Source: Leeuwenhoekiella aestuarii (GTDB lineage: Bacteria; Bacteroidota; Bacteroidia; Flavobacteriales; Flavobacteriaceae). Taken from it: a DNA stretch of 64,000 nt. Location: the NCBI RefSeq assembly GCF_004104055.1, contig NZ_QOVJ01000001.1, positions 62,001 through 126,000 of the forward strand, written 5' to 3'. The position numbers and the translations under genes were made by a program. A model generated the notes under the pieces. It was not told the origin of the DNA. It ran no database searches and was given only the letters and a program-made list of their open reading frames with translations. Shown piece after piece: positions 16,047 to 36,486 of the stretch. How positions within the stretch are numbered: the stretch's first letter is position 1; each line of letters opens with the position of its first letter.

Positions 16047-16061
16047 GTGACCCCGGAGGGA
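16047..16061 (+). repeat. left attachment core (attL)
   Basis: GTGACCCCGGAGGGA, identical to 36472-36486. The flanking bases differ on both sides, so 15 bp is the full identity. Confidence 0.85.
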
Positions 16062-16253
16062 GTACAATCAATGCAAAACGCATAATCAACACAAGACACT
16101 AAAACCCATTAAAAATACTCTCATCCCAATATATACAGGGGTTTAAAATAAATACCTGTTTTTGCATATATTCGCATACCTTTGTTTTTATTATTATTTA
16201 GCCGTACAACTACCGTACAATTTTTATAAATTTGTATTGTAATTCAATTTTCC
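16062..16253. promoter_or_regulatory. left arm of the element upstream of the integrase
   Basis: This gene-free 192 bp holds a pair of CCGTACA sites (16202-16208 and 16213-16219, 11-bp period) and a good TAAATTTG box of the Bacteroidota TAnnTTTG type at 16227-16234, 19 bases before the integrase ATG. The CCGTACA pair occupies the place of the upstream promoter element. Binding there by the recombinase or an accessory factor could both build the recombination complex and repress the integrase promoter. Confidence 0.6.
16202..16219 (+). repeat. CCGTACA pair, left-arm site
   Basis: Two CCGTACA copies with starts 11 bp apart. The same pair with the same spacing and orientation lies 58 bp inside the right attachment core (36397-36414), which suggests arm-type recombinase or excisionase binding sites. 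Confidence 0.65.
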
Positions 16254-17525
16254 ATGGCTACTGTAAATTTCCTATACCGATCCACAAAGGACGAATCTAC
16301 GTTAAATGTCAGGCTTCTTTATAGGCTTAACAGTCCTGAGTACGCAGAAGGTTTTAAAGACTTTGTTTTGGGCTCTAAGACAAATATTCAAGTTTCAAAA
16401 CATTACTGGTCCAAGCTTCATAATAAGAGGTCAAAAGATATTGAAATCCAAAACAAACAGACTGAAATAAATAGCCAGACCAATGAGCTTTCTAATTTTA
16501 TCCTAAAGGCATTTGATAAAGAGCAAGAACAGGAGTTGGATAAGAAATGGCTTCAGAATGTAATAAAAAACTATTACAGCCCTCAAGAGGAAGAACAGGC
16601 ACTACCTAAAGACGTAGTCAATTATCACGAGGCTTTTATCGATATGAAAGGAAGTGAATTAACCGAAGGAACTAAAAGGAAATATCGGGTTACAAAAAAT
16701 CTTCTGATCAGGTATGAGAAAGAGATCAATTCAAAAGTCCTTATTAAAAATGTCAATCTTTCTTTTAAAAAGAAGTTTGAAGCCTACTGTTTAGATAAAG
16801 GTTATGCTCCCAATACAATAACCAGAGCTTTTAGAACTATCAAAACACTTTGCCGTCACGCTAAATTTCACGGCTTAGAAACCAGTTACCAATTAGACAG
16901 CATAAAGAGCAGCTACCATAAAGTACCTAATATCTATTTGAATTTTGAAGAGTTGGAGAAACTCGAAAAAATAGATCCCAAAAAACTAACTGAGAGTTAT
17001 GAAAATGTGAGAGACTGGTTAATTATAAGTTGCTACACTGGCCAGAGAGTTTCTGACTTTATGAGATTCCGTAAAGAGCACATAAGAATTGAAAACGGGA
17101 AGAGCTTTATTGAATTCACTCAAAAGAAAACCGGTAAGGTAATGACTGTTCCACTTCACCCAAAAGTATTAGAAACACTTGAGAAAAGAAACGGGGAATT
17201 TCCCAAAGCCATATCCGATCAGAGATATAATGACTACGTAAAAGAAGTTTGCAAAATTGCTAAAATCAATCAAATAGTTACCGGTAGCAAAAAACTGGAG
17301 ACTGAACCAGGTAGTAAAAAATACAGAAAGAAAACCGGAACTTATGAAAAGTGGGAATTGGTAAGCTCTCATATAGGACGAAGATCCTTTGCTACCAATT
17401 TTTATGGAACCATCCCTACAAGCTACCTAATCTATGCAACTGGACATTCTACAGAGGCAATGTTCTTAAACTACATAGGCAAGAGCAATAAAGATTTAGC
17501 TATTGAAATGACAAAGTTTTTTTGA
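16254..17525 (+). CDS. tyrosine recombinase/integrase of the element
   Basis: The 423-residue protein catalyses site-specific integration and excision. It has an N-terminal arm-binding-like region (1-100), a SAM-like core-binding domain (about 110-210), and a catalytic domain. Catalytic residues are all visible: Arg265 in TGQRVSD, His373 and Arg376 in HIGRRSF, His398 in ATGHS, and the nucleophile Tyr407 in FLNYIGKS. The gene starts 192 bp inside the left attachment core and points inward. The ATG chosen is in CCATGG, 19 bases after a TAAATTTG promoter box. Confidence 0.95.
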   Translation: MATVNFLYRSTKDESTLNVRLLYRLNSPEYAEGFKDFVLGSKTNIQVSKHYWSKLHNKRSKDIEIQNKQTEINSQTNELSNFILKAFDKEQEQELDKKWLQNVIKNYYSPQEEEQALPKDVVNYHEAFIDMKGSELTEGTKRKYRVTKNLLIRYEKEINSKVLIKNVNLSFKKKFEAYCLDKGYAPNTITRAFRTIKTLCRHAKFHGLETSYQLDSIKSSYHKVPNIYLNFEELEKLEKIDPKKLTESYENVRDWLIISCYTGQRVSDFMRFRKEHIRIENGKSFIEFTQKKTGKVMTVPLHPKVLETLEKRNGEFPKAISDQRYNDYVKEVCKIAKINQIVTGSKKLETEPGSKKYRKKTGTYEKWELVSSHIGRRSFATNFYGTIPTSYLIYATGHSTEAMFLNYIGKSNKDLAIEMTKFF

Positions 17526-17588
17526 ATACAGAAAGACGTAAAAATTTTACACTTAGATAGTTTACATTCCACCAAACAAAAATCAACT

Positions 17589-18146
17589 ATGAAGACATTC
17601 TACATTTTAGCAATTTTACTTTCTCTTAGCGCTTCGGCTCAGGCTCCCAAATTTGAACTTACCGCTCAAGGATTTGTAAATGCCAGTGATCCGGAACAAA
17701 ACTATCTAGTAATTGAATCACCGGAACTAGATCAGGCTCAAGTTTACAAAAAGGCTCTTACTTATCTTCACACGCTATACAGCAATCCAGACGAAGCACT
17801 GAGCGTAATTGAAAATGAACAAATAACAGTAGACGGGTACGCGCCTAATAGCGTTCACAGAAACGGCATGCACGTATTCGATATGGATTACAACTACATA
17901 TTAAAGTTCAAAGATGGAAAATTGAGGATTGATGCCCCTACTTTTGAGTTGACTACCTTTACAGATCACAAGCAAGTATTACATTTAGTGTGGACTAAAT
18001 TTAGTATGGATGGGTCAAATTTGGGTATCTACGGAAAGAAAGACAGACTCAAATCTGACAGAGCAAAAGAAGATTTAGAAAATCACTTCAATGCGATAGT
18101 TTCAGGAATATTTGAAGCTATTAACAGCGCAGGTGATGACTGGTAA
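17589..18146 (+). CDS. exported DUF4468-like protein
   Basis: The 185 residues begin with a clear signal peptide (MKTFYILAILLSLSASAQA). The mature part resembles the DUF4468/TBP-like fold common in Bacteroidota, with a central repeat-like core FDMDYNYILKFKDGKLRI. Function is unknown. It is accessory cargo between the integrase and the tail module. It shares the integrase direction, 63 bases downstream. Confidence 0.6.
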   Translation: MKTFYILAILLSLSASAQAPKFELTAQGFVNASDPEQNYLVIESPELDQAQVYKKALTYLHTLYSNPDEALSVIENEQITVDGYAPNSVHRNGMHVFDMDYNYILKFKDGKLRIDAPTFELTTFTDHKQVLHLVWTKFSMDGSNLGIYGKKDRLKSDRAKEDLENHFNAIVSGIFEAINSAGDDW

Positions 18147-18348
18147 TTAATAAAAAAACTCATCTTGAATAATGTATTTAGACTCCTCCCTAAATTGCAA
18201 TTCAAAGGTTATAATTTTTGATACTGATTAAAATATAAATCATACTATTTCAAATTAATACAACTTATTTTGTTTTGATCTATAGTTTCTACTAATATTG
18301 AAGCTAATCATTTATACACAAGACTAGATCATAAAAAACTATTTAATA

Positions 18349-18639
18349 ATGGGTAAAAGTTTAAAATCTTTCAAGAAAGAGTTTGAGAAAAAATGGGTCG
18401 GCCTTTCAGCCGTAGTAATTGGGATAGCAGGACTGTTTAGTATTGGATATTATTGTGGAAATTATTTAATGGAAATAAGTTGCGAAAGAGAAAAACTAGC
18501 TATTACCGAGCAATATCAAGAAAAAATTTTTGAGCATAGATCAAGTTGCAATTCTTACATGGTGGATGGTTTACTAAAGAAAACTAGTGTAATGGAATTA
18601 ACCATTGAACAGTTGAAAAATATAAAAAATGAAAAATAG
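18349..18639 (+). CDS. small single-pass membrane protein
   Basis: The 96 residues have a Lys-rich N-terminus, one membrane helix at about 18-42 (GLSAVVIGIAGLFSIGYYCG), and a charged helical tail with two Cys residues. I do not recognise a family. It overlaps the following gene by 11 bases in a different frame, so the two are translationally linked and may act together at the envelope. Confidence 0.55.
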   Translation: MGKSLKSFKKEFEKKWVGLSAVVIGIAGLFSIGYYCGNYLMEISCEREKLAITEQYQEKIFEHRSSCNSYMVDGLLKKTSVMELTIEQLKNIKNEK

Positions 18640-19363
18640 AATAATAATTATTTTGCTGTTTTTGATTGTAGTGGGAATTGTTCTATTTATTGAAAACACT
18701 CAATACATAAATGATTTAAAAGGCCAGGTGACTCTTAAAGACGAAAGAATTGAAGCTTTAAAATTTAGTGACTCATCAGTTGCAGAAGCTACTAAAGAAT
18801 ACTCAAATACTATAACTAAATATATAAAAGATTGCAATGTCGATGTAGACGGAAAAACCTTTACGTTTGACGAATTTATTGATCTTTACATTAGCGAAGT
18901 TGAAAATTCAAACAAAATAAAAGATTCTTTAAGAAAGCTTTCATTTCTCAATAAAGGATATATAAAAAAGTATGGCCCATCCCTATCACTTAAAAAGAAA
19001 AACGACTCTACAATAATAATTGTCAACTCCCCAACCAGAGCAGACACTGCCTTAGCTTATCTTCAAGAATTGAAAAGCATTGAAAATGAATCGACTAGAA
19101 TCAAAGATAGTCTTCAAGTATATCGAAGTATGGTACATTTCCTTGAAAAAAAGTTTGAAATCCATTCTTACTACGATATGAACAATAAATCCATAAAATT
19201 TGGATTTAACGGTTTGGAAAAAATTGATTCTGCACTTTTTTTATTGCCATACTACAGGCATAGATTAACAATAGACAGTACGACAGTTACTGTTGAAGTT
19301 GATCAGGAGTACTTGAGAAACGAGAGAAGAGCCAAGAGGGCTCAAAGAAAAAATAAGAATTAA
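18629..19363 (+). CDS. membrane-anchored coiled-coil protein
   Basis: The 244 residues start with a membrane helix (residues 4-22, IIIILLFLIVVGIVLFIEN) and continue as a charged, mostly helical, probably periplasmic domain that ends in a very basic tail (RRAKRAQRKNKN). The layout recalls inner-membrane spanins in outline only. It overlaps the upstream small membrane protein. No family is recognised. Confidence 0.5.
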   Translation: MKNRIIIILLFLIVVGIVLFIENTQYINDLKGQVTLKDERIEALKFSDSSVAEATKEYSNTITKYIKDCNVDVDGKTFTFDEFIDLYISEVENSNKIKDSLRKLSFLNKGYIKKYGPSLSLKKKNDSTIIIVNSPTRADTALAYLQELKSIENESTRIKDSLQVYRSMVHFLEKKFEIHSYYDMNNKSIKFGFNGLEKIDSALFLLPYYRHRLTIDSTTVTVEVDQEYLRNERRAKRAQRKNKN

Positions 19364-19444: not shown

Positions 19445-19609
19445 ATGAATCCGTACCTCCAAATAGCAAGAGAACACCTCAGCATTGAGGATTTAGAAAT
19501 GCTCTTAAGAGAAAAAAGAGGCAACTCAGCTGAGCCTATGACCTATGAGCAAAGTAGAGCCGCTTATTACGGTGAGCAATTTAAAAAGCTACATAGACGT
19601 AAAAGTTAA
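19445..19609 (+). CDS. small hypothetical protein, 54 residues
   Basis: The frame begins MNPYLQIAREHLSIEDLEML and ends QFKKLHRRKS. It is charged and helical, with a codon pattern like that of its neighbours. It ends 26 bases from the convergent tail gene. No family is recognised. Confidence 0.4.
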   Translation: MNPYLQIAREHLSIEDLEMLLREKRGNSAEPMTYEQSRAAYYGEQFKKLHRRKS

Positions 19610-19635: not shown

Positions 19636-22053
19636 TTAAAATATTGATTTGTTTGCGTGCCAGTAAACACCGTCATTAATAAAAGTCCAGCGTTCGCCAA
19701 TATTCAACCCTATAGATGCTACATTTTGATTTGTGAAAATTTGACCTGTTACATTTATAACTTCATCCATTCTTTTAACTGTAATTACCCGTCCTTCTGG
19801 ATGCGTGGTAGGGTCTGGTAGGTATATATTAATTGCAGCAGAGTTGTAACAGGAGATGTATTCATCATATTGAGCAATAGTATAATCATCTGAATTGACC
19901 AGTCTTTTAATGCCTTTGAATCTACCTTGAGTCTTTAAGTCTAAAAAATAACCTCCGTAAGCTTCTACCGGGTTAACGTTTTCATTTTTTGCAATTCCAA
20001 AAACCCCGGCGATAAACTCTGTATTTTGTATATTTCCTTTAGGTAGGTTTGAATAACCTATACCTAATATTCCTGCCTTACCTTTGATATTGCTTTGTGT
20101 GAAAAGCGAAATATCTATACCGGGGAAATTTGCTACAACTCCACCGCTATTTATAGAAGCAGAAGCGCCCTCTTGGAAAGCATCACCCTGCCTGAAGCAT
20201 ACGATTGAACCGTCAATACTGCTTAAGGATATTCTTTGCTTATACGGTCTAATTCCTGCAGATCCTTCAATATTTAATTTCGTATTTAATCGAATATCTC
20301 CATTTATACTATCAAGAATAACTCTCGGCTCGACTTCCGATTCGTCTTCACTCTCGTAAATAGCTTGAGAAACTATCTTTCCACTCTGTATAAGCCAATC
20401 TCCAATATTTGCGTTTTCAGCAAGTAATGTGTTGGTAGCGATGATCTCGAAGTTATCATCTATAAACTGCCAATTAGCGATAATGAATTCTGCTGCTTGG
20501 TTATCTTGGCCTATGTAGTAGAACCATTCTTTAACACCTTCATTATTGAACTTAAAAACGTAATCAACTCTATTTTGAGAATTATGATAAAGTGTTTCAG
20601 GATTGAACTCACCCATGTTCACATACAATGGAGCTTTGAAATTACCGATGTTATTGAACACCCGGTTGAACTGCTCACTTACATATTTTTCATTCTGGTA
20701 AATGGTGTTTTTTATATTCCGCTGATCTAACAAAACACTTGTTATGTAGCTAATCGTTACCTGACTGCCAATCTCAAGGGAATACTGGTAAGGATTATTT
20801 AGTTTCTGAGATAAACTTAAAATGCGAACCTGAAAATCAATACCAAAGTCTTCATCAGTGATCGTTATGATATCACCTATATTTAATTCAGTTTGATTAC
20901 GTCTTAAATAAGGGTAGTGAGGACTAACCTTATAAATAACATTCGGTTGGCTGTACTTATCCAGATATTCGGTTGCACGCTCTAAAAGTTCTTCCTCAGC
21001 GTTGTCTATATACGCCTGAGGCATTTTGATATTGACAAGAACATACTTATCACCGGAACGAGGTCTGAAGGTTTCATTTGGTGAAGTATAGTCGGTTTCA
21101 TCGGTGTAAGGAATAATCTCTATTTCCTTATTTGAATTATTGTAACTGGCGATTTCAAATTCACGACCGGCAAGATCTCCGGTGTTGAAAATAACTTTTG
21201 CTTTTGCGCCTCCTATAAGTTGATCGTTGATATTGAAATCAATTGAGGTGTCTCGAAATTTTGTAATACTTGATGAACTAGAAACAACCCCCTTCAATCG
21301 TGGGTAAACATCCTCAAATGTTACGCTACGTTCTATGGTCCCGAAAACATTAACATTATTTTGAAGTTTGGGTATTTTTAGGCGTTTGCTTCCGTATTCA
21401 TTTGTAATGTTTCGCGTGCTTCCGCTTGGGTATAACACAGTAACCAACTCCGCATTTTGAAGGGTGAGGCGTTCAATATCTCGAAGTCCTTTTTTATACT
21501 CAAACTTTAGATTCGTTTCAGACCCTATCTTTTTCCGGAAAGTGATTTGCTTTCCTTTAACCTGAAATTCACATTCAAATTCAGCCGCTAATTTTTGAAG
21601 GGCAGCAAGACAGTTTTCATTTGTGAAGTTGAGATTCTTTCCTTCTAAAGGTTCTACATAATCAGCAAAATAAACACCTTCACCATATACCCGGTTAAGG
21701 TTTGAAATTATCAGGCTTACCGCATCAATCGGATCTCCGAACAAATAAAACTCCGATTCATCATCAAGCATAACCTGAACGTTTTTCAGGATATACATAT
21801 CTGATTTGAATTGCAGATTATAGCTGAATGTATTCTGAGACTTCTTAACTTGAGGTTCGTCCAGAATTGTATAAACAGAATCCTTGAATTCAATAAAATC
21901 TCCTATCTGCAAGTCTAGCTTTCTACCTTCAATTGTAAAGCGAGAAGTCACCACGTCTTCACCGCCTATTTTTTGAAGCAACTCCGTTTGACCGTCAATT
22001 TCTATGTTGTTAATCTGAGTTTTAACCTCATCGATATATCTAAAAATCCTCAT
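19636..22053 (-). CDS. phage tail protein (Tal/endopeptidase-like N-terminus)
   Basis: The 805-residue product looks like a tail-tip or baseplate hub protein. The N-terminal 440 residues have the beta-rich layout of prophage tail proteins (MRIFRYIDEVKTQINNIEID, LQIGDFIEFKDSVYTILDEP, LQKLAAEFECEFQVKGKQIT). The C-terminal part is a fibre-like region with short beta repeats, likely for surface contact. It is the last gene of the leftward tail module, 3 bases after the tape-measure gene. Host-range function is inferred only. Confidence 0.75.
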   Translation of the reverse strand: MRIFRYIDEVKTQINNIEIDGQTELLQKIGGEDVVTSRFTIEGRKLDLQIGDFIEFKDSVYTILDEPQVKKSQNTFSYNLQFKSDMYILKNVQVMLDDESEFYLFGDPIDAVSLIISNLNRVYGEGVYFADYVEPLEGKNLNFTNENCLAALQKLAAEFECEFQVKGKQITFRKKIGSETNLKFEYKKGLRDIERLTLQNAELVTVLYPSGSTRNITNEYGSKRLKIPKLQNNVNVFGTIERSVTFEDVYPRLKGVVSSSSSITKFRDTSIDFNINDQLIGGAKAKVIFNTGDLAGREFEIASYNNSNKEIEIIPYTDETDYTSPNETFRPRSGDKYVLVNIKMPQAYIDNAEEELLERATEYLDKYSQPNVIYKVSPHYPYLRRNQTELNIGDIITITDEDFGIDFQVRILSLSQKLNNPYQYSLEIGSQVTISYITSVLLDQRNIKNTIYQNEKYVSEQFNRVFNNIGNFKAPLYVNMGEFNPETLYHNSQNRVDYVFKFNNEGVKEWFYYIGQDNQAAEFIIANWQFIDDNFEIIATNTLLAENANIGDWLIQSGKIVSQAIYESEDESEVEPRVILDSINGDIRLNTKLNIEGSAGIRPYKQRISLSSIDGSIVCFRQGDAFQEGASASINSGGVVANFPGIDISLFTQSNIKGKAGILGIGYSNLPKGNIQNTEFIAGVFGIAKNENVNPVEAYGGYFLDLKTQGRFKGIKRLVNSDDYTIAQYDEYISCYNSAAINIYLPDPTTHPEGRVITVKRMDEVINVTGQIFTNQNVASIGLNIGERWTFINDGVYWHANKSIF

Positions 22054-22056: not shown

Positions 22057-25000
22057 TTAATTTGCTTGAAATTCTATAATTGCTCTTTCAATACTAGCAA
22101 AACGGCCATCTATACTTTCTAAGTACCTGTTGTACCTAGTGTTCACCTCAATTTTAGCCAGATAAGTGATTGCTTCAGTGTTGACTTCTAAGTTTCTACG
22201 GGCATCTAATCGCATTGCGTTTAATGTACCGGCTAAAATATTTGCCGTATCTTCGGTTACTGAAGCTATAGCTCCACTTAAACCTTGTTTAGATGTATCG
22301 GCACCTAAGGATCCAATACCGGTATTTTCCAAAATATCGTTAATCGCATCTAAGTCAGTCTGAGCACCAGAAATTAGGGTGTTGTAAAAGTTTCTAAGCC
22401 TTTCAATATCTGCAGAACTATAGCTCCCGTCTGCTCCTGCCTCAGCAAACTCTTTATAAAAGTCCTCAACCTGATTTGCTAGAAAGTTTATTTTGAAATT
22501 ATTCAATAAAGCTTCCTGCATCATTACCCCAAAGTCATCGGCAAAATCTGAGGCCGCTCTTTTACCGTTCCGGAATCCTTCAATTATACTATCTGTAATT
22601 GATTGAGAAGATGTGCCTGTATAAATTTCATTGAGTTCTGCTTGCAGTTCCTGAGCCTCTCTTTTCAGCTGTTTTGCCTGCTCTGCAAACTCTTCAAGTT
22701 TCGCGGCATCCGTTCCGCTTCCCTTGCCTTTTTTCCCGATAGTAAGCCCTAATAACTTCACTTGCTTCTCGGCCTCCTTTTCGGCTTGCTCAGCTCTTTT
22801 AATGTCCTCTTGCAACTGCTCGAGATTCTTCAACTGGTCAAGTCTATTTGTAATCTGGTCACGTCCTACACTTTTAGAGATAGCATAGTCCAAATCATCA
22901 ATAGCACTATTTAACTTTTTAATGGCTTCTTCAAACTTTGCAGTATCAGAAACAACCTCAACTGTTAGAGCACTATCTAAGACGGCTAATCCTCCGCTAA
23001 TAATATCAGCAGGATTACCAGTAGCTATGCCTTTAGCAAGCTGACCAGCTCCTGCAGCGACTCCTGCGAGTTGATTCAGTAATTTTGCGGTGTCCTCATC
23101 TCCAAATTTTTGGAATAAAGAAGAAACCTGATTAAATATTCCTGCTAGCTCATTCGCGGTTTGTTGAATGTTATTTCCAACCTCATCCTGAGATCTTTTT
23201 ATTTCCTCGTTGATAGCGAGTATTTGATCTTTTGTGAGTTCTTCAGCTTTCAATTTGCCTTTCAGCTTTTGAATATGAGCCTGTAGCTCTCGGTTATTCA
23301 TATTCAATAGACTACCTAGAAAATCCGCGTGCAAACCTTCAGCATCATCAAGATACTTTTCAGCTTCTTTTAACTCTAAACGTCTAATCTTGATTCGTTC
23401 CGCTAATGCTTTACGTTCTTCGTTGGTTTGAGCTGCGTAGAACTGTTCGTAAAGGGTTCTTAATTGTCGATCAATCGCATTTATAGAAGTAGTATCAATT
23501 TCAAAGTCAACCGGTACCGTAATTGGCTGTAAACTATTTGGCGAGGTCACAACGCCTCTATTTAGGTTGATTCCCTCCTTCTCAGCTGCTAAAACGATTT
23601 TTTGCTGTTCAGCAAATACCTTTGTTTTATCTAACTGATTCTTTAGGTATTCACCGTAATCAGATCCTTGTTTTAAAAGCGTTTCAAACTGAGCATCTGC
23701 AATCTCTTTTCCTATTTGCTTAACTACGGCCTCGTACTTTTCGTACTCTTCCTTATTCTTATTGAGCATCTCAGTAAATGCATCTTTCTTGGAGTCTCCA
23801 CCAGATCCACCTTTTGGAGTGTATGAAGTATTTAAAAGGCGTTGGCGCTTCTCCGCATACTTTCTGATTTCTTCAGTTTCGCTATCTAAGAAAGGCTTTA
23901 GGGAAGGAATATCTTTTGCCAGGTCAATAGACTTGAAAGTTTCAAACACTTCCTTTCTAGCATCTACAAATTGCTTTATATCTGGAAACTTGTAGTTTTC
24001 AAATTGCTTTAATCCTTCAAGGGAATCCAATGCAGCTATTTCCTTAACGATTTGTTTTGCTCCGGCTGCATTGTCGTAGGTTAAACGTTTAATACGCTGA
24101 AGCTTTTCCTCCTCTTTATCAAGTTGATCATTAGCGTCCCCAAGACCTCGGCTGTAAAGATTTATTGCATCGTTAGCAAAGTTCAAATCTGCAATAAGAC
24201 GCCCTCCCTTTCCAAATGGATTTGCATCTAATTGCTTGTTGAGCTTTCCTAGTATTTCAGTAGGTGAATCGCTATAACTAAAATTGAGTTTGATATCTTC
24301 TTTAGCTGCGTAATCTTGAATTTCTTCTACTAATTTATAGAAATCAGAAACGCTTTCTTCATAGAGGTTTCTTTGAGTTGCTTTATTATTTTGGGCATCT
24401 ATAACCTTTTGATTGAGTCCGCTTAATTTAAGTCTTCGGTTTTGCTCGTCGTTGATATCAGAAAGAGCCTGCTTAACCTTTACAAGAGTAGTTTCAAGGT
24501 CATCGTTTTTGATCTTATCTAAATCAATACTTTGAAGGTATTCCGGATACTGCTCTTTTAACTTTCTAATTGCCTCAAAACGCTCATCGTATGAAGTATT
24601 TGTATCGAGTATAGTCGAATTTAATATATTGAATTCATTCGCATGTTTACGTATAGCGTCATTGTAATTCTCGGTATCTGCAATTGCACGGTTGAGAAAC
24701 TTTGCAAGCTCGTTGCTCACATCAAGTGCAGATTCACCAATTCCGCGCGTAATAGCTTTAATTCTATTCCCTAAAATCCCTAATTGATTAACATTTGAAG
24801 AAATATTTCTTTCAAATGCTTCTTGTGATGCTCCGGCTGAATTACCTAAATCTTCTAAGTCTTGCGCTGCGCCCTGTGCGTTTTCTCCGGTAGTTGATAG
24901 AATGGCGCCCATAGCCTCAACGCTGCCGGTTAACTCTTTTAATTTGTTCTGACTTCCTCCTGCTTCTTTATAAACTGCCTGAAAAGCGTTTTGAAGTGTT

Positions 25001-25746: not shown

Positions 25747-25992
25747 CTATTTTAAAGAAGAGATTCCGATCTGAAGAACCTCATCATCTGTGTAATCGTC
25801 AATATTAGCCGCGAACATTAAGAACTTATTAAGCTCTTGGTCACCGGATTGAAGAGCGTTACTATTGACTAAGTTTTTAAACTCTTCTTTTCTTCGCTCA
25901 ATTTTCTCAGAATTGCGTCTAAATTGTATCTGAGTGATTCGGTAAGCGACTAGGTCTTTTGCTATTTGTTTAATTTCTTCTTGTGCTGTCAT
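25747..25992 (-). CDS. small protein before the tape measure (possible assembly chaperone)
   Basis: The 81 residues are charged and helical (MTAQEEIKQIAKDLVAYRIT). Its place directly before the tape measure is where tail-assembly chaperones are usually encoded, but the sequence does not prove this. It is 9 bases from the tape-measure start. I see no sign of a programmed frameshift. Confidence 0.5.
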   Translation of the reverse strand: MTAQEEIKQIAKDLVAYRITQIQFRRNSEKIERRKEEFKNLVNSNALQSGDQELNKFLMFAANIDDYTDDEVLQIGISSLK

Positions 25993-25997
25993 AACTA

Positions 25998-26159: not shown

Positions 26160-26177
26160 TTTTTTTGGTATCTAAGG

Positions 26178-26351: not shown

Positions 26352-26366
26352 TATGCGCTTTTGTTT

Positions 26367-26689: not shown

Positions 26690-26692
26690 ATT

Positions 26693-26710: not shown

Positions 26711-26717
26711 TGAAGCA

Positions 26718-29536: not shown

Positions 29537-30872
29537 CCTCTAGGATTAAAGAGCGTGAAGATCTTTGCGCATTTTCTTTCTGGATCTGCTCAATTTCTGT
29601 TTTTGCATCTTTGGTATATGGACTTCTTGAAATTAAAGTCTCTTGGCTGTTTACTGGATAACCTCCACTAGCATCCACTAAAGCTTTGATTTCTTCCGCT
29701 ATATCTCTAGGGATTGAAAGGTTGAATTCAATATCAAATTCTAAGTTATCTTCATCTATATCTAAGCCGTTTTTAACAACACTGATAATTCTCTCTATAA
29801 CTGTTCGGTATTGTCCTTGTTTTGACTTCGCTTTGTTTATGGCATCCTGAAGCATTAATTCAAGAGCCCGGCCAGATATTGTTCCGATTCCCTTTACGTT
29901 GTCAAAACTTAGATCAGGAGTTTGTGAAATATTGAAAATGAATTCTTTCAAATAGTCCATTTCTAATTTGATTGATTCAACACCGGTGTCACGCTGTAAA
30001 AATTCTGCTTCTGCCTCAACGATTTGCCCGTTCTTCTCAGCTATTCCTAGAAGTATAGATTTACCATCGTCTGAAATATCAATCAACCCCTCGTCTTTAC
30101 CTTCTTTATTTTTGATAGTTGAGCCTTTGAGTTTTAGAATAGGAAAGGCGAAGTAGTTGTTTGAGCCGGCTAATTTGCTGATAAGCATTTCTACGCGATC
30201 AATTAATTCTTTAGTGTCATACCATTCTGGCTGTGGCTGCTCGTGAAAAACAACCGGGATAACTCCAAAATCGTGGGTGTCACTACCTAAATATTTTAAA
30301 TCTGAAGAACCCGGTCCGCTGTACTTATGAATATACTCATCTGTGAATATCCAAAGGTGACTAACCTCATCTATTACAAACTCCCAATAAAAAGCTACTA
30401 AGTCTCCGTAAACATCATACTCAGGAGTATATTTTCCGTTGTCGGAATTGTACATTCTGGCTTTAATATCTTTATCTGGCCCCACTTCGGAAAATATAAA
30501 TACTGCCATTGTCTCAGACATAACCACTTTAGCAAATTCAAGAAGCTTATTATTCAGCCTGTTCTTTTTAATAGCCTGCAGAATCCTTTGTCCGTTTTCG
30601 TTGTCTGGATCATTCGCTGTTATACTTACCGGCTCAGCTAATAAAAAACTTGCGGCTGTTTCTACAATCTTTTTTTGTAGGTTGATAACAAGTCGCTCAG
30701 CTTCGATAGTCTTTAGATTGTTCTGGTAGTTCTCGCGGTAACCTACCTGCAGTTTCCTAATTTTACGGTCTCCCCGGTATTCTTTGACATAAGGCATCAC
30801 ATCTCTAGAGTTAGCTTCTAGGAATTTAATAACTTGTTCTTTACTGGTGTGATCTATTTGATTTGTCTCCAT
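29529..30872 (-). CDS. phage portal protein (SPP1 gp6-like)
   Basis: The 447-residue protein would form the dodecameric DNA entry ring of the capsid. Features of the SPP1 gp6 family include YRGDRKIRKLQVGYRENYQN near the N-terminus, FLLAEPVSITA, PVVFHEQPQPEW and the helical stem LKEFIFNISQTPDLSFDN. The length is normal. It lies before MuF and both terminase genes in transcription order. Confidence 0.92.
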   Translation of the reverse strand: METNQIDHTSKEQVIKFLEANSRDVMPYVKEYRGDRKIRKLQVGYRENYQNNLKTIEAERLVINLQKKIVETAASFLLAEPVSITANDPDNENGQRILQAIKKNRLNNKLLEFAKVVMSETMAVFIFSEVGPDKDIKARMYNSDNGKYTPEYDVYGDLVAFYWEFVIDEVSHLWIFTDEYIHKYSGPGSSDLKYLGSDTHDFGVIPVVFHEQPQPEWYDTKELIDRVEMLISKLAGSNNYFAFPILKLKGSTIKNKEGKDEGLIDISDDGKSILLGIAEKNGQIVEAEAEFLQRDTGVESIKLEMDYLKEFIFNISQTPDLSFDNVKGIGTISGRALELMLQDAINKAKSKQGQYRTVIERIISVVKNGLDIDEDNLEFDIEFNLSIPRDIAEEIKALVDASGGYPVNSQETLISRSPYTKDAKTEIEQIQKENAQRSSRSLILEDE

Positions 30873-30878: not shown

Positions 30879-31724
30879 TTACTTTAAACGTTCTTGACGG
30901 TCCTTTGCGGCTTGAGCCCTTTTCTGTTCTCTAGATCCAAATTCTTTAAGCCTTTGTTTATAGATTATATCTTGCTCAATTGCAGATTTGATTGAGTGCG
31001 GTTTTAAATTGTATTGTCCGTCGTTAGCGTGAAAGAAATACTCTGCTATAGAATTCACATTCATAGTACCTCTGTATCCAACTGCTTCCAGTTCGGCTTG
31101 TAATTCTTTGAAACCGTCCATAAATTTATTGGCTGCATCGTAAATTTTGTTTTCTTGATCTGTCGCCAGATAAACCTTGCAATGCTGCTCAATAAATTTC
31201 GCCTCCGTTTCTTCAGTTATCATAAAACTCCCGCCGACATAGTCAATCATTTCCAGTTTAAGAAATGGCGTGTTGTCATTAAAACCTCTGTAATAATTCC
31301 GGAAAGAAATTACATTTTGAACATCGTCCTTAAATTTTTGAAATATTTCATTGCTACCTTTTATTAGGTTTGCTTTAATAAGGCTTGAGGTTATACCAGC
31401 CTTTTTGATTTGAGATTCCATATTTCTCAAATACTTTTGCTCCATATTTCTCAAGCCCCCTTTTTTAATCTCTTGAAAAACCTTACCTGAGAAAGATCCC
31501 ATCTCAAGAGCCTCATATCCCGTTAGCATATTTACTAACAGAGGTTTTATTCTTTTCAGGTCTTTACGAATGTTTTCAACACCCTTGTTATCCTGATGAA
31601 TTAATTTTTTTGCCTTCATACTTCTGTTTTTAACAGGGATATCTAAACCCCTTTGTTTAATTATTGATTTTAATTTTGCTGATAATCTGCTCAACGTTTT
31701 TGTATTCTGTAAATAAGCGCTCAA
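30879..31724 (-). CDS. hypothetical phage protein before portal
   Basis: The 281 residues are Lys-rich, with predicted helices in the first half and a mixed region with a Tyr/Phe-rich block (NYYRGFNDNTPFLKLEMIDYVGGSF). I do not recognise a family. It is not a convincing major capsid protein. The annotated start overlaps the previous gene by 68 bases; Met36 at 31619 is a plausible later start. It ends 6 bases before portal, so a packaging or procapsid role is possible. Confidence 0.5.
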   Translation of the reverse strand: MSAYLQNTKTLSRLSAKLKSIIKQRGLDIPVKNRSMKAKKLIHQDNKGVENIRKDLKRIKPLLVNMLTGYEALEMGSFSGKVFQEIKKGGLRNMEQKYLRNMESQIKKAGITSSLIKANLIKGSNEIFQKFKDDVQNVISFRNYYRGFNDNTPFLKLEMIDYVGGSFMITEETEAKFIEQHCKVYLATDQENKIYDAANKFMDGFKELQAELEAVGYRGTMNVNSIAEYFFHANDGQYNLKPHSIKSAIEQDIIYKQRLKEFGSREQKRAQAAKDRQERLK

Positions 31725-32475
31725 GGCTTATTTCTTTACAGGCAACCACTACTTTATTAGATGGCTTGCCGTCTTTCTTTAATTCATACAAGGCCTTCTC
31801 AATTTTATTTAAGGCTGCTTTTTGGCGTTTTACTAATCGTCGTTCAGCCATTTCTTTGACCTTATTTTTGATATTAATATCCTTTGGCATTATCCCGTAT
31901 TCATCAAGAAAATCATAGAGATATAAGCGACCAGGCTCAATGGAATTAGTTTCAATAAATTGAGCATGTGCTTCTCTAAGACCATTAAGTATTAAATCCA
32001 TTTTTTGGTCTTCGGTGAGTTCGTCCGTTTTGCAAGAGTTGTCTTTAAAAAGTGGGATATTGTTATCGTGACGAATCTTCAAGAGCCATTTCTTGTACTG
32101 ATCTAAAACCTTCGATACATATTCCGCATTAAAGAGTTGGAAATGTTTCACGCGCTCTCCATAAACTCCATATCGCTCTAGCTTAAATGCGTAGTCGATT
32201 TCCTCAATAGACAAGCTTTTAAAACGTGCTAATATCATTTCTTTTATATCCTGCTTATTGATATTGCTTATAGGATCTTTGAGTCCTATGAGATTTGCTG
32301 CTTTTACAAACACCATTGCTAAATTGGGTCCTATCTGATCCGGTGGTATATTTTTGATTTTATCAAATTCAACCACATTCCGAGCAAAAGCAATCTCTGT
32401 TAAATTACCAGCCTTCGCTATTCTGTCTGATAGTTTGTGCTGACTGACGGTTAATTGTTGGCTCTGCGCTTCCAT
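31657..32475 (-). CDS. phage replication-associated protein (helicase-loader position)
   Basis: The 272-residue helical protein follows the winged-helix replication protein, the usual position for a helicase loader, but no AAA+ motifs are visible, so this is a guess from position. The N-terminal part reads AGNLTEIAFARNVVEF; a charged C-terminal coiled coil follows. The start overlaps the previous gene by 71 bases and there is no good alternative Met nearby, so the overlap is probably real. Confidence 0.5.
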   Translation of the reverse strand: MEAQSQQLTVSQHKLSDRIAKAGNLTEIAFARNVVEFDKIKNIPPDQIGPNLAMVFVKAANLIGLKDPISNINKQDIKEMILARFKSLSIEEIDYAFKLERYGVYGERVKHFQLFNAEYVSKVLDQYKKWLLKIRHDNNIPLFKDNSCKTDELTEDQKMDLILNGLREAHAQFIETNSIEPGRLYLYDFLDEYGIMPKDINIKNKVKEMAERRLVKRQKAALNKIEKALYELKKDGKPSNKVVVACKEISLERLFTEYKNVEQIISKIKINN

Positions 32476-33247
32476 GTCGTTTATTATTTAAGGGCTGATT
32501 AGCTTGCGCTACTAGTGTTGATATTTTTTTTCTAAGTGTTTTTGTTGAAAGAATATTAGTTTTCCAAAATTCCCCGGCTGGTGAGTTGAGAAATTTATAC
32601 GCCATGGTAACTTGGTCTTTATTTACCTCATCTCTCTGAAACATCAACCTAATCGGATCTACATAATTTTTATATGTAGCTTTTCGCTGATCCTTTGTTG
32701 TGGAATTTTTTTCTTCTAAATTTTTAATGAATAATTGCTGAAAAGATTTAGCTATCTGAAAATATTTTTTTTCTGAATCCTCGACGTCTGAAATGTTAAT
32801 TTCAGATAGAAGATTATTTCTTATATTCTTAATTTCTTTATCTTCTTTACTTCTTATAGTGTTGTTGGGTTGCGTGTTATTTTGATGTTGTTCACGTGTT
32901 GGGTTGCGTGTTGGTTTGGTTGTTGATTCTTCTTCGTTCGGTTGGTAATCGTCATATTTTACAAGGGTTACCACCGTAAATTTGTTTGTTGAGTAGGTTG
33001 TTATTTCGCCTGTTGATTTGAGTTTGCTTATAGCTGTTCTGAATTGTTGCTTAGAAATGCCTATTTTTTTAGGAGTTTCTGAGGTTCCTGTAATGCATTG
33101 ACCTCTTTGAATTGGGTACTTCTTATACTCTGTGTATTCCCAGTTTGCAGTTAGAAGCAGGTGCATAAATGTTAATCTAACTGGCACATCATTATACCAT
33201 TCCCACTCTAAAAGCTTCCTGTGCATCTTTATCCATCCTATCGCCAT
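32405..33247 (-). CDS. phage replication initiator-like protein (winged helix)
   Basis: The 280 residues start with a phage O/DnaD-type winged helix: AIGWIKMHRKLLEWEWYNDV, an RGQC segment, and KIGISKQQFRTAISKLKSTG followed by YSTNKFTVVTLVKYDDYQ. A Lys/Asn/Thr-rich linker and a C-terminal helical domain follow. Such proteins bind the phage origin and recruit the host replisome. It lies 5 bases after the RhuM-like regulator. Confidence 0.75.
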   Translation of the reverse strand: MAIGWIKMHRKLLEWEWYNDVPVRLTFMHLLLTANWEYTEYKKYPIQRGQCITGTSETPKKIGISKQQFRTAISKLKSTGEITTYSTNKFTVVTLVKYDDYQPNEEESTTKPTRNPTREQHQNNTQPNNTIRSKEDKEIKNIRNNLLSEINISDVEDSEKKYFQIAKSFQQLFIKNLEEKNSTTKDQRKATYKNYVDPIRLMFQRDEVNKDQVTMAYKFLNSPAGEFWKTNILSTKTLRKKISTLVAQANQPLNNKRHGSAEPTINRQSAQTIRQNSEGW

Positions 33248-33252: not shown

Positions 33253-33696
33253 TTACCTATAAAGATCTTTGATGTCTGATTTGCTTGAGTAGTGACTTAG
33301 CTCAAGCTCAAGAATTTCCTTTGCGCTCTGTATTCTTGTGATTTTTTCTGAGAGTAACTGTATTGCGTAAGACTGAAGTTTTATAGCTACATCACTTCTA
33401 AGTCTAAAACCTATTGCAACAACTTCATTAAGAGTGAACAATTCCTGAACCCTCACTTTACCATCTTTAGCAATATGGCGAGATTTCGCCGGGTTGATTA
33501 GCCCGTCTTGTTTAAGATTTCTAATGTTATCCGCTAAAGTCTTTCTAGGTACTTGATATAATTCACTCATCTGACTCCTACTTGCGAAACGCTTAGTGCT
33601 GTCAACAATTCCAAAATCTTTGAATATTGACAATTCGCTATCTTTAAAATGAGTAGCGCAAATAGATTTGTCGCCATGTGCTTTAATATTGCTCAT
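33253..33696 (-). CDS. DNA-binding regulator with RhuM-like C-terminus
   Basis: The 147 residues show a winged-helix-like block (RSQMSELYQVPRKTLADNIR) and then FTLNEVVAIGFRLRSDVAIK, which resembles the RhuM/phage regulatory pattern N-I-GYRV-S-A--F. A role as antirepressor or replication regulator is possible. It lies 3 bases after the MerR-type gene and 5 before the replication gene. Confidence 0.6.
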   Translation of the reverse strand: MSNIKAHGDKSICATHFKDSELSIFKDFGIVDSTKRFASRSQMSELYQVPRKTLADNIRNLKQDGLINPAKSRHIAKDGKVRVQELFTLNEVVAIGFRLRSDVAIKLQSYAIQLLSEKITRIQSAKEILELELSHYSSKSDIKDLYR

Positions 33697-33699: not shown

Positions 33700-33978
33700 C
33701 TACTTGTTAAGTTTGATTAATGTTTGAAGAAGTTCACTTCGTTTATAATACCTGCGATTAGAAATACCATAGGCTGTGACTATTCCTTTATTAGTCCAAG
33801 TCCAAAGGGTTGAAGAGTTTATTTTTAAAAATTTACAAGCCTCATCCCGAGTAAGAAGCTCTTCCGGTTCATTAGGAATAGATAATGCCTGCTTAATGTG
33901 ATCAATCAGTTTTTCATCCCGATGATTTAAAACCTCGAGTAACTGATCAGTTGTGAGAAGATTTACTGTTCCTGACAT
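33700..33978 (-). CDS. helix-turn-helix (MerR/excisionase-like) protein
   Basis: The 92 residues contain an HTH_17 domain (LLTRDEACKFLKINSSTLWT followed by a Lys-rich wing and RYYKRSELLQ) of the kind found in excisionases and recombination directionality factors. It would bend DNA at the attachment site or act as regulator. It is 70 bases downstream of a tandem repeat array at 34048-34081, which could be its target. Confidence 0.75.
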   Translation of the reverse strand: MSGTVNLLTTDQLLEVLNHRDEKLIDHIKQALSIPNEPEELLTRDEACKFLKINSSTLWTWTNKGIVTAYGISNRRYYKRSELLQTLIKLNK

Positions 33979-34084: not shown

Positions 34085-34870
34085 TTAGACTATTTCATTT
34101 TTAATACGCTCGTATAGGCTTTGGATTTTATTACCACTACCGCTATGTCTAGAATCTATTCTATCAATAGAAATATTATAAAGCTCTGTATTGACCAGCT
34201 CAACAAACCTCGTGTTTGAACATAATATCTGATTTGGCTTATCCTCTTTCATGATCCAATAAATCCTACTGTAATTTGCGAGTTTGCTCTTTTTATCCTT
34301 ATGAATTTCGTGTAGTTCTTTGAAAATCCAGTAGGCCTTATCATCTAAAAAAACATCCTTATGAGGATTTTCAACGTATGATGCATTTCGCCTTATGAAT
34401 TTTAGATATTCATTTGCTATAAAAGTCACCTTTGCGTCAATATTTGCCTTTCCTGCTGATTTTTTGTGTAGCTCAAGAAGTGCTTCAATTCTAGGAGTTA
34501 GCACCTCTTTCCGGTAATGCTCATTTTCTTTTTGAGTATTATTGAGTTTGCTATCTTTAAAATGGTTTTTATATAGTTTGTGGAAGTCCGCTGTTGTTTC
34601 GGCTAGTCTAGTCTGATTCTTTAAAATATATTTTTCCTTTTTGACTACGTCAAATCTTTCACCTTTTTGATTTATGTAGTAGATCTGTCCGTCTGACTCA
34701 AACTTCTCCGGCTCTGGATTTTCGGTATAAAAAGTATCATAGAACCCCTCTCCTTTTTCATTATAATACAACTCACCACAGTATTTATCTTCAATAGGAA
34801 TGCTTAAAAACTGCTTTAAAGCACCCCTATCCATTACTTTTTTACTTAGATCATTCCAAATATCTGACAT
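34085..34870 (-). CDS. hypothetical protein after the repressor
   Basis: The 261 residues contain an acidic N-terminal part with many Tyr residues (YYNEKGEGFYDTFYTENPEP) and a Lys-rich helical C-terminal part (about 100-240). No family is recognised. It follows the repressor gene by 10 bases, so it is expressed with it and may be a lysogenic-state gene such as superinfection exclusion; this is inference from position. Confidence 0.5.
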   Translation of the reverse strand: MSDIWNDLSKKVMDRGALKQFLSIPIEDKYCGELYYNEKGEGFYDTFYTENPEPEKFESDGQIYYINQKGERFDVVKKEKYILKNQTRLAETTADFHKLYKNHFKDSKLNNTQKENEHYRKEVLTPRIEALLELHKKSAGKANIDAKVTFIANEYLKFIRRNASYVENPHKDVFLDDKAYWIFKELHEIHKDKKSKLANYSRIYWIMKEDKPNQILCSNTRFVELVNTELYNISIDRIDSRHSGSGNKIQSLYERIKNEIV

Positions 34871-34880: not shown

Positions 34881-35189
34881 TTATTGGTTAACAAGCTTAT
34901 TGAGTTCCTCCAGATCCTTTAAGGAATTAATCCGGTACACTTTGCCCTGAAACTCTACGAACCCGTTTAGAACTCCCTCAGCACCCCCTACCGGCTTTGT
35001 AGAATGGAATAGCTGACGAATATCAACATCTAATACCTCAGCGATTTGTTGTAGCAAATTTGGGCGGGGGAAAGATTCACCATTTACAATATTATAAATT
35101 GAGACTGGACTAACCTCTAAAGCTTTTGCTAGATCACGGGCGTTTATAGATTGCTCGTTTAATAATTCTTTAATTCTTAATATCTGCAT
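34881..35189 (-). CDS. XRE-family repressor
   Basis: The 102 residues carry an XRE/Cro helix-turn-helix at about 3-60 (SINARDLAKALEVSPVSIYN and FPRPNLLQQIAEVLDVD) and a short C-terminal part for dimerisation. It is divergent from the rightward operon that starts at 35314. The 124-bp gap holds candidate operator sites. It is the likely switch regulator of the element. Confidence 0.85.
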   Translation of the reverse strand: MQILRIKELLNEQSINARDLAKALEVSPVSIYNIVNGESFPRPNLLQQIAEVLDVDIRQLFHSTKPVGGAEGVLNGFVEFQGKVYRINSLKDLEELNKLVNQ

Positions 35190-35313: not shown

Positions 35314-35994
35314 ATGAAAACGATTTTTAAATTCGAGAATGCAACCGTAAGCCACATTATTCACAAAGAAATGGAGACGCTTTTAAAACTTCAAGAGGAA
35401 ACAGATTATATGCTTAAAGCCTATGAAAAATATTCTTCCAAACCTAAAAAGCAGCAATTAGTTAAGTTGAATGTTCCAGAAGGACTGGCTATCGATCTTA
35501 TATACGGTGCGTTGATTCTGTTTGAAAAAGAAACTTTTATTGATGTATCTATGCTTGAATTCTTAGAAAAAACCTTTGACACATTTTCATCTAAAATATA
35601 TAACACGGATGAGCCAAAACAGGTAATTGATAATATGTATGATAGCGTATTTCAAAGCCTTCCAGACTTAAAAGAGAACAAACCACATTACCTCAATCAA
35701 TTCTACGAAGCTTGCGCATACCTTCATAAATTGAGCGATATCACATATTTTCTAACTGGTGACTTTAATTTCAATATCCCGTACGACTTATTAATTGTGC
35801 TCTCAGACATAGAAGCCTCTACTATTCTTTTAAATCATTTGAGCACCCCTAAGTCTTATAGCACGGAGTTTGATAAAACTTTTTATAAATGGACTGAAAT
35901 ACTAGAAGAAGAAACAAAAGGCGAAGTTATTCAAAAGCGATTTAAGGAAGAGCTAAACGCCCACGTTGAAAAACTGATGCCGGCTGCAGTATGA
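35314..35994 (+). CDS. hypothetical protein, first gene of the right-end operon
   Basis: The 226 residues are acidic and largely helical; no family is recognised. I chose the ATG at 35314 (MKTIFKFENATVSH) because the longer frame would run over the operator repeats. The gene is transcribed away from the repressor and overlaps the next by 4 bases (ATGA). As an early rightward operon it could encode anti-repression, excision or defence functions, but nothing in the sequence decides this. Confidence 0.55.
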   Translation: MKTIFKFENATVSHIIHKEMETLLKLQEETDYMLKAYEKYSSKPKKQQLVKLNVPEGLAIDLIYGALILFEKETFIDVSMLEFLEKTFDTFSSKIYNTDEPKQVIDNMYDSVFQSLPDLKENKPHYLNQFYEACAYLHKLSDITYFLTGDFNFNIPYDLLIVLSDIEASTILLNHLSTPKSYSTEFDKTFYKWTEILEEETKGEVIQKRFKEELNAHVEKLMPAAV

Positions 35995-36206
35995 AAAGTG
36001 TAAATATTATTATACTGAATGTAATAGAAAATACGCGTAAAGAATTCTTTAGTAAATTTGGCAAAGATCCGGAAGAGGAAAAAAAGCTTTTTATAAATTG
36101 GTACGTCCAAAACAATGAAGCTCCGCTCCGGGTCCTTATTAATGATTTATCAGATTACTATCTGCATATTTCAGAGCGTCAAATTTTACGATATCTAAAT
36201 GAATAG
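35991..36206 (+). CDS. small hypothetical protein, 71 residues
   Basis: The product begins MKSVNIIILNVIENTRKEFF and ends DYYLHISERQILRYLNE. It is charged and helical with no family I recognise. It overlaps both the previous gene (4 bases) and the next (8 bases), so the three are translationally coupled. Confidence 0.5.
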   Translation: MKSVNIIILNVIENTRKEFFSKFGKDPEEEKKLFINWYVQNNEAPLRVLINDLSDYYLHISERQILRYLNE

Positions 36207-36387
36207 AGACAAGAACTTTGTAAAAAAGCGTATCAAAAGAATAGGCCTGTTTTTTGAAATTAAAAAGGCTCAAGGATTAACTTCAAAGGTTGCCATTATT
36301 GAAATAGCTCAAGCTTTAAGTGTATCCCGTAGCGTAGTAGTTAAGGACCTGGGGAAATACAATAAAAGTCTGAAAAATGAAGAGTAG
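36199..36387 (+). CDS. small helix-turn-helix protein, 62 residues
   Basis: The product contains AIIEIAQALSVSRSVVVKDL near residues 34-53, a helix-turn-helix-like pattern, after a Lys-rich N-terminus. It may bind DNA and control the right-end operon or the nearby arm-type sites, which begin 10 bases after its stop. Confidence 0.55.
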   Translation: MNRDKNFVKKRIKRIGLFFEIKKAQGLTSKVAIIEIAQALSVSRSVVVKDLGKYNKSLKNEE

Positions 36388-36396
36388 ATCAATTTA

Positions 36397-36414
36397 CCGT
36401 ACATAAACCGTACA
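36397..36414 (+). repeat. CCGTACA pair, right-arm site
   Basis: CCGTACA at 36397-36403 and 36408-36414, with the same 11-bp spacing and orientation as the left-arm pair. The core repeat lies 58 bp away. The asymmetry of the arms (140 bp left, 57 bp right) resembles that of known phage attachment sites. Confidence 0.65.
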
Positions 36415-36426
36415 GTTTTAAAAATA

Positions 36427-36467
36427 AAAAACCGTAACACCTTAATTATATACGTGTTACGGTTTTT
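36427..36467. terminator. 14-bp perfect hairpin at the right end
   Basis: AAAAACCGTAACAC at 36427-36440 pairs perfectly with GTGTTACGGTTTTT at 36454-36467. A-tracts and T-tracts are on both sides, so it works in either direction. It would end the rightward operon and also the leftward tRNA-Arg transcript, replacing the terminator displaced to 16009-16035. Confidence 0.75.
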
Positions 36468-36471
36468 ACAT

Positions 36472-36486
36472 GTGACCCCGGAGGGA
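36472..36486 (+). repeat. right attachment core (attR) in the tRNA 3' end
   Basis: Identical to the left core. It covers the acceptor 3' strand and part of the T-stem of the tRNA, so integration keeps the gene whole. Confidence 0.85.

Follow-up and report, generated by a model that had tools for sequence, protein, structure and literature searches.

The 64,000-nucleotide stretch of the Leeuwenhoekiella aestuarii genome (G000) analysed here, hereafter the window, contains a 20,440-bp element (16047–36486) with genes for DNA packaging and for a phage tail and with no recognisable capsid gene, which we interpret below as a probable phage satellite. The element is bounded by identical 15-bp direct repeats, GTGACCCCGGAGGGA, with the left copy, read from the sequence, at 16047–16061 and the right copy at 36472–36486, where it forms the 3' end of a tRNA-Arg(UCG) gene on the minus strand (36472–36546). 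An earlier note on this DNA had described a 20.4-kb element with a 15-bp repeat at this tRNA gene; its coordinates are correct and two congeners back the borders. In genome G009 the window's left flank (95%) and right flank (98%) stop at the same two repeats, which there enclose a different 5.2-kb insert. Because the flanks end at the same repeats around a different insert, the borders are genuine, and this comparison is their best proof. In L. marinoflava DSM 3653 (the matching contig of genome G005, congeneric with G000) the same repeats enclose an 18,076-bp relative of the element. No strict empty site was established, and the G009 locus with its other insert was used in its place; a general repeat scan did not place the 15-bp repeat among its 20 largest direct families. 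The G009 insert (locus L114, 2091–7264, contig C3) carries a recombinase gene that is apparently in pieces, and genomes G010 and G011 have G009-like sequence immediately to the left of the repeat. The resemblance of these three genomes on that side suggests that the tRNA-Arg site may be an integration hotspot.

The first gene inside the left border encodes a tyrosine integrase of 423 residues (16254–17525, plus strand; Phage_int_SAM_5 and Phage_integrase), whose counterparts in the related contigs L011 and L012, described below, are 97% and 92% identical. The packaging and tail genes lie on the minus strand. In the order of transcription they comprise p246 (30879–31619), which is common to the satellites considered here; a portal of 447 residues (29529–30872; SPP1_portal); a MuF-type minor head protein of 339 residues (28517–29536; PHROG head morphogenesis); the terminase subunits TerS (163 residues, 28022–28513; Terminase_2) and TerL (434 residues, 26718–28022; assigned by family searches); three small genes treated separately below; an 81-residue gene with no assigned role (p81, 25747–25992), which occurs in L011, L012 and L013; a tape measure protein (TMP) of 1226 residues (22057–25737; PhageMin_Tail; aligned in a set of four); and a tail-tip protein, Tal, of 805 residues (19636–22053; Prophage_tail), 82% identical to the Tal of a prophage in Leeuwenhoekiella G001. 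The element also has replication and regulation genes of its own, all on the minus strand: a DnaD-like helicase loader of 280 residues (32405–33247; phrog_2514, 2e-42), an excisionase-like protein of 92 residues (33700–33978; HTH_17) and a C1/Cro-type repressor of 102 residues (34881–35189; HTH_3). Family searches thus back every one of the functions that had been named earlier, from integrase and repressor through portal, MuF, TerS and TerL to tape measure and tail protein.

Family searches of the element's proteins found no capsid, tube, protease, connector or lysis (endolysin) protein; protease and lysis genes were looked for by this route only. For the other head and tail genes, profiles were constructed from their counterparts in related phages and then broadened with 27 phage loci. 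The profile of the major capsid protein (MCP) matches all 27, which serves as a sensitivity check only, as these loci were picked for an already seen capsid gene and had themselves gone into the broadened profile. Family matches (phrog_29, 6.6e-40; Phage_cap_E, 4.9e-16) confirm that the phage MCP is a major head protein, and the endolysin is confirmed in the same way; decoration, connector and tail chaperone are labels given to the phage genes. Among the 724 open reading frames (ORFs) of 12 satellite or candidate loci, the MCP profile had no match at E <= 1e-3, and the scaffold, decoration, connector, tube and tail-chaperone profiles had none at E 1e-3. The 12 loci are the window, L011, L012, L013, L063, L064, L034, L098, L099, L115, L070 and the fragment L038; L063 resembles L011, L115 is a weak case, and L098, L099 and L115 were trimmed to the element. 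In a tblastn scan of 45 loci for the MCP, 30 gave a match and 15 did not. The latter include the satellites or satellite candidates L063, L064, L034, L038, L070 and L071, the short or truncated contigs L044, L049, L050 and L053, the loci L060, L061, L062 and L068 with divergent or unseen capsid genes, and L025, which had been found via its tape measure alone. Profile and family searches therefore bear out the earlier observation that capsid, protease, scaffold, tube, connector and lysis genes are not to be recognised.

The earlier note had suggested that a capsid fold might be sought in proteins of 281, 261 and 226 residues. The first, listed from a TTG at 31724, most likely begins at residue 36 (ATG at 31619), which is the start of its ATG-begun relatives, and is thus the 246-residue p246. 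Its AlphaFold model (seven sequences) is mainly helical, with a mean pLDDT of 80 and a pTM of 0.57, and Foldseek retrieved nothing for it at E <= 0.001 from either PDB chains or BFVD, so that neither model nor structural search supports a capsid fold. Among the loci searched by tblastn, matches to p246 were confined to satellites and candidates, with none in phage loci, and our guess is that it may act in capsid assembly or in interference. The model of the 261-residue protein is too poor to judge (mean pLDDT 61); this protein and the 226-residue one had no capsid sequence matches, which excludes a capsid fold in them on sequence grounds only.

A scan of IMG/VR with MuF picked up the greater part or the whole of the element in four contigs, L010, L011, L012 and L013. 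L010 is 100% identical to the element and likely comes from the same strain or clone, and the L. marinoflava element, L063, matches L011. The window's order p246-portal-MuF-TerS-TerL-(small genes)-TMP is preserved in L011, L012 and L013, with Tal present in the window and L013 and missing from L011 and L012. A metagenome-assembled genome (MAG) of Christiangramia, L064, has p246, portal, MuF, TerS, TerL, two small genes and Tal, and no TMP; L034, also Christiangramia, has MuF, p246, small genes and TMP, and no portal or TerL was found in it. The taxon names of IMG contigs are presumed here. Two smaller p246-bearing elements, L098 and L099, yielded no portal, MuF or TerL, and L098 has in addition a TerS homolog and a virion structural protein of 764 residues (10400–12694; phrog_15220). 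In another small p246-bearing element, L115, a 707-residue protein (10794–12917) has no PHROG match. The small genes labelled TerS-like in L034, L099 and L115 are so named for their position and resemblance only, and the one small gene searched in each had no terminase family match. Close relatives with capsid or tube genes at 26 kb, which the earlier note regarded as the sign of a simple deletion, are absent among the relatives seen.

The p246 profile matched 3 of 397 sampled Flavobacteriaceae genomes, the window genome included; across the order, 395 genomes were sampled and it again matched 3, namely the window genome, one discounted (G602) and one weak (G722). As the profile matches so few genomes, the satellite lineage is uncommon. 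The match in G602 (L116) was taken as chance, with no phage or satellite genes recognised nearby; that in G722 (L115) is weak (E 1.4e-4) and lies in a plausible element, and it was not counted as firm, yet stands among the 12 loci profiled. Two further IMG/VR scans with distant p246 proteins gave nothing new. A possible gut relative, MT835752 (L072, 19 kb, human faeces), was rejected as a phage piece that carries an MCP, and a MuF-like scrap with stops in contig C2 of G000 (E 2e-4) is probably due to chance, as no phage gene was recognised nearby.

Twenty-three pairwise comparisons of nonsynonymous and synonymous substitution rates (dN/dS) were made between the element and its relatives, of which 18 are usable and 5 saturated (four with L064, and TerS with L011). 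The ratio is at most 0.10 in 13 of the 18. Values of 0.05–0.10 were obtained for portal, MuF, TerS, TerL, Tal and p246, some of them from pairs with dS above 1 (2.8 for MuF against L064); TMP gave 0.08 against L011 and 0.29 against L012, p81 gave 0.22–0.24, and p261, the gene of the 261-residue protein, gave 0.10–0.14. These values point to purifying selection on the element's genes and not to decay.

Terminase and tail-tip blocks have been swapped among the relatives. Between the window and L013, blastn similarity breaks over 1.6 kb that cover most of TerS and TerL, which were thus largely exchanged together, with alignments of 97.7% and 91.7% on the two sides; the TMP of L012 is conserved at both ends and differs in between. 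L011-type satellites share 80% identity in TerL with the phages L030, L033 and L037, well above the 57–66% by which the window's portal and MuF resemble these phages, and Tal is closer to phages than TMP is. We take this as a sign that the satellites have exchanged blocks with phages of the helper kind, because L011-type TerL and Tal are nearer to phages than portal and MuF and than TMP, respectively.

The capsid-bearing phages most akin to the element are siphovirus-like phages of Flavobacteriaceae, namely the long IMG/VR contigs L014, L024/L037, L030, L033 and L036 (49.6–56.6 kb), the fragment L035 and, in Leeuwenhoekiella G001, an apparently complete prophage of about 50 kb whose ends were not delimited. 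The window's portal is 54–61% identical to theirs, MuF 54–66% and the 71-residue p71 55–70%; within the stretches covered, Tal is 78–82% identical (two phages) and TMP 40–60% (four phages, two of them partial). An endolysin family match was found in L024, with a homolog in G001. The prophage in G001 has the order TerS-TerL-portal-MuF-p71-p62-scaffold-decoration-MCP-connectors-tube-TMP-Tal, in which TerL was placed by eye, and the other contigs agree with it where they overlap. In the satellites portal and MuF precede TerS and TerL, and p71 and p62 (35991–36387, plus strand; 71 and 62 residues, p62 with a weak helix-turn-helix match below the cut-off), whose phage homologs sit between MuF and scaffold, lie at the attachment end next to the repressor. 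A simple deletion from such a phage is rejected, because the capsid block of the phages follows MuF-p71-p62 and not TerL, so that one deletion cannot yield the element's order. Between MuF-p71-p62 and the scaffold gene, L030 (11433–12656) and the G001 prophage (joined loci L095–L097, 24078–31061) have variable extra genes, which in G001 apparently include a recombinase-like gene (by eye).

An MCP of this kind occurs in 4 of 60 relatives searched and, of the 13 genomes of the genus, only in G001; G000 itself lacks such an MCP and has no SPP1-type portal besides that of the element. Apart from the window, Tal is matched in 2 of the 13 genus genomes, G001 (82%) and G012 (30%). PMC11515562 reports two induced Leeuwenhoekiella prophages, of 42.7 kb and 35.4 kb in excised form. 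A megablast search of the element against a phage collection, in which the presence of these two prophages is uncertain, gave no match.

In a tree of 35 MuF rows, the MuFs of six satellites form one clade (support 85/87), five of them with support of 100/98. This clade is nested in a larger one (100/100) whose other eight rows all come from MCP-bearing phages, L030 and L037 being near-copies. Judged by the MuF clade, at moderate support, and by the dN/dS values, the lineage appears to be maintained apart from its helper. The 5.9-kb fragment L038 and the Porphyromonadaceae MAG L070 carry integrase, MuF, TerS and TerL, with no portal or MCP detected. When all eight MuF-bearing satellite candidates are labelled together they require three changes on the tree, with L038 and L070 placed elsewhere, and the position of these two MuFs outside the window's clade suggests that such elements may have arisen more than once.

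The earlier note had found only small ORFs in the 0.73 kb behind TerL. The stretch between TerL and p81 (25993–26717) indeed lacks a capsid gene, a candidate that we reject; it is, however, not devoid of content, as three small genes of 49, 57 and 53 codons, all on the minus strand, are kept in relatives, except that the 53-codon gene was not recognised in L012. The first (26367–26516) encodes a ribbon-helix-helix (Arc-like) protein (PHROG 1e-5; Pfam below cut-offs), and the other two encode charged proteins of 57 residues (26178–26351) and 53 residues (25998–26159), the latter perhaps a coiled coil by eye. Among the satellite ORFs the scaffold profile ranked ten such small genes at the top, weakly (best E 0.0024, in L098). 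The C-termini of phage scaffolds, such as KNEPSKEEVEAFKLKV in L036, resemble the end of the window's 57-residue protein, KNEPTPEEIKIYKQSIQ. When four scaffold tails were scored against the 22 C-terminal residues of each of 3,287 distinct ORFs, seven scaffolds came first and the small genes of the window, L013, L012 and L034 took ranks 8–11, followed by those of L011 (14), L098 (20) and L064 (27). Of the 606 C-termini from satellites, those of small charged genes hold the first six places and share the seventh (L064). With a position-specific score four small genes are at the top among the satellites and the C-terminus of a portal comes next. The scaffold tails most like the window's are those of L035 and L036, whose capsid protein shares no more than about 34% identity with its L030 counterpart. 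As these two phages combine the most window-like scaffold tails with a distinct capsid protein, we forecast that the window's helper would have a capsid of the L035/L036 kind.

Downstream of the integrase, on the plus strand, are an accessory protein of 185 residues (17589–18146; weak DUF4468), present in L011 (91%) and L013 (94%); two accessory genes of 96 and 244 residues (18349–19363), a block that falls within a stretch missing from L011, L012 and L013; and, between this block and the tail-tip gene, a 54-residue gene absent from the earlier listing (19445–19609), which is 83–96% identical in L011–L013 and has a 61% identical counterpart among the early genes of the G001 prophage. Upstream of p246, on the minus strand, are a 272-residue protein (31657–32475; phrog_26016, no assigned function), a 147-residue early gene (33253–33696) with relatives in L038 and L099, and p261 (34085–34870), also an early gene, with relatives in L011, L012, L034 and L064. 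The gene of 226 residues (35314–35994, plus strand) is divergent from the repressor and has no assigned role. Near the repressor, a scan for promoters gave 3 sites, compared with a mean of 6.3 in shuffled sequence. Outside the window, in contig C2 of G000, three near-identical 60-codon ORFs about 306 bp apart (L118, 8600–9394) are seemingly a tandem repeat.

The borders, the gene content without recognisable capsid genes, the conservation, the selection, the block exchange and the kinship with capsid-bearing phages are directly established. On this basis we regard the element as a phage satellite that takes its capsid from a helper phage and is maintained as such, and is not the remnant of a phage, with a probability of roughly 0.7. 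It is part of a real, conserved and probably functional satellite lineage with an unusual division of parts between satellite and helper. The earlier note had left the choice between a defective prophage and a new type of satellite; relatives with the same order, selection, block exchange and the neighbouring capsid-bearing clade give good support to the satellite, and the defective prophage is poorly supported. For the latter, one would assume a 50-kb phage of the L030/G001 kind from which the block of capsid and tube genes has disappeared and in which decay is under way. The portal, MuF, p71, p62, TMP and Tal that the element has in common with capsid-bearing phages, and the lack of Tal in L011 and L012, would fit such an origin. 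We consider it very unlikely, since the major genes have open reading frames on which purifying selection acts, the same plan is common to distinct elements in several hosts, more than one deletion separates the element's order from that of the phages (portal-MuF-TerS-TerL here, TerS-TerL-portal-MuF there, with p71-p62 of the element at the attachment end), and the six satellite MuFs cluster together (85/87).

The element could instead be an autonomous phage of small size, with a capsid protein that has diverged beyond recognition. One candidate would be p246, which is conserved, immediately precedes the portal and matches no known family; its mainly helical model, which lacks a significant structural match, its relatives in L098 and L099, where no portal, MuF or TerL was found, and the failure to find tube, connector and lysis genes as well make this improbable. 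A satellite packaged by helper parts, whose portal, MuF, TMP and Tal act as decoys that interfere with the helper, would account for the differing sets of virion parts among satellites and for the position of p71 and p62, homologs of genes in the head operon of phages, next to the repressor. It would leave unexplained that full-length TerS and TerL are kept as a pair and were exchanged together between the window and L013 types, and that Tal and portal are full length and constrained, as a decoy need not be, and we hold this explanation, too, to be unlikely.

Several observations weigh against our preferred interpretation, a satellite that borrows its capsid, or against parts of it. Excision, packaging and transfer of the element are predictions. 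A missing MCP match alone is no definition of a satellite, given the fragments and divergent phages among the 15 of 45 loci without one, and the scaffold, connector and tube labels in the phages are positional, family confirmation being confined to MCP and endolysin. No tail or packaging part is obligatory, as seen from the lack of Tal in L011 and L012, of TMP in L064 and of portal and TerL in L034. The satellite MuF clade has moderate support (85/87) and leaves out L038 and L070. The likeness to scaffold tails was spotted by eye and scored afterwards. The scaffold profile is weak on the window's 57-residue gene (E 0.0065) and aligns to its charged middle, not its tail; the seventh place of L064 is tied with an unrelated ORF of L115; four of the seven cases are orthologs in near relatives, which leaves about four independent ones; and the scores of the L011, L098 and L064 genes are also reached by unrelated phage ORFs. 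By the position-specific score several unrelated phage ORFs stand above the window's gene and L064 is low, and the 53-residue gene is low on the tail score.

The element has features of phage satellites in general: it is integrated between defined attachment sites with an integrase of its own, it has replication and regulation genes, and genes required for making a particle unaided, such as those for MCP, tube and connectors, gave no match in it. The view in the earlier note that known satellites as a rule carry a capsid of their own and take tails from others holds for capsid-forming phage-inducible chromosomal islands (cf-PICIs) and is wrong as a general statement. P4 and the Staphylococcus aureus pathogenicity islands (SaPIs) are capsid borrowers. 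According to PMC10690885, cf-PICIs have genes for capsid, protease, portal, connectors and terminase and depend on others for tails only. The element resembles them in being integrated, in having its own portal, TerS and TerL and in needing a helper for part of the particle, but it has no recognisable capsid or connector gene (0 of 12 loci match the MCP or connector profiles) and no protease family match, and has TMP and tail-tip genes of its own. Like PICIs of the SaPI1 type it has its own TerS and would borrow the helper capsid, and the scaffold-like C-terminus of its 57-residue protein is suggestive of a further parallel; unlike them it also has its own TerL, portal, MuF, TMP and tail tip. 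In PMC10690885, Mulch and Flayer, satellites of Streptomyces phages, are described as having portal and terminase genes, one of them with its own tail fibre, and as encoding capsid and scaffold without primase homologs; the element is like them in portal and terminase and differs in having replication genes and no capsid gene that could be found. The phage-inducible chromosomal minimalist islands (PICMIs), which PMC10803314 presents as marine phage satellites of reduced gene content without capsid-remodelling genes, are like the element in being satellites of marine phages and differ from it in these two respects. The kin phages, finally, differ in carrying the MCP and the genes placed as scaffold, connectors and tube, and in their gene order. 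PICMIs carry an integrase, as does the element. In the titles and abstract beginnings of open-licence literature we recognised no capsid-less satellite with its own portal, TMP and tail tip and no phage satellite of Flavobacteriaceae, which is weak evidence of absence, as subscription papers are mostly outside this scope.

We propose the following sequence of events, in which excision, the identity of the helper, hybrid particles and the redirection of capsid size are all predicted. The element would be silent at tRNA-Arg under its C1/Cro-type repressor, would be excised by its own integrase with the excisionase-like protein, and would replicate from its own DnaD-type module. The helper would be a siphovirus of the L014/L030/G001/L035/L036 kind growing in the same cell and would provide capsid protein, decoration, connectors, tail tube and lysis. 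The satellite's own portal, MuF, TerS and TerL would then direct the packaging of satellite DNA, and with its own TMP and tail tip, satellite-coded proteins would be ejected and a satellite-coded tip would meet the cell. The 57-residue protein, the 53-residue protein or both could be a mini-scaffold that rivals the helper's scaffold for capsid protein and so leads to a smaller shell, as CpmB of SaPI1 does; given the tie for seventh place among the C-termini and the limited independence of the cases, we give this assignment a little less than an even chance. According to PMC5644958, CpmB has a C-terminal RIIK motif in common with the 80alpha scaffold and competes for capsid protein, yielding small heads, and PMC12409344 argues that Rcm of SaPIpT1028 acts like CpmB.

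More tentatively still, we speculate that the element may represent a new class of Bacteroidota satellites that form hybrid particles, with motor, portal, ejected head protein, TMP and tip from the satellite and shell, tube and lysis from the helper, and with an independently evolved, CpmB-like mini-scaffold. Under the same tentative proposal, related elements would span the range from L098, with p246, a TerS homolog and one large virion protein, to the full set of the window, and would exchange parts with their helpers. Satellites described so far mostly take over an entire helper particle, or build a shell and use the helper's tail. This lineage seems complementary to them, in that the shell would be borrowed and the parts for packaging, ejection and the tail tip contributed. 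If the proposal is true, the parasite could influence which cells are entered while the costly shell is left to the helper, a short capsid-size switch that evolved to end like the helper scaffold would offer a testable parallel to CpmB, and the range of phage satellites in Bacteroidota would be extended.

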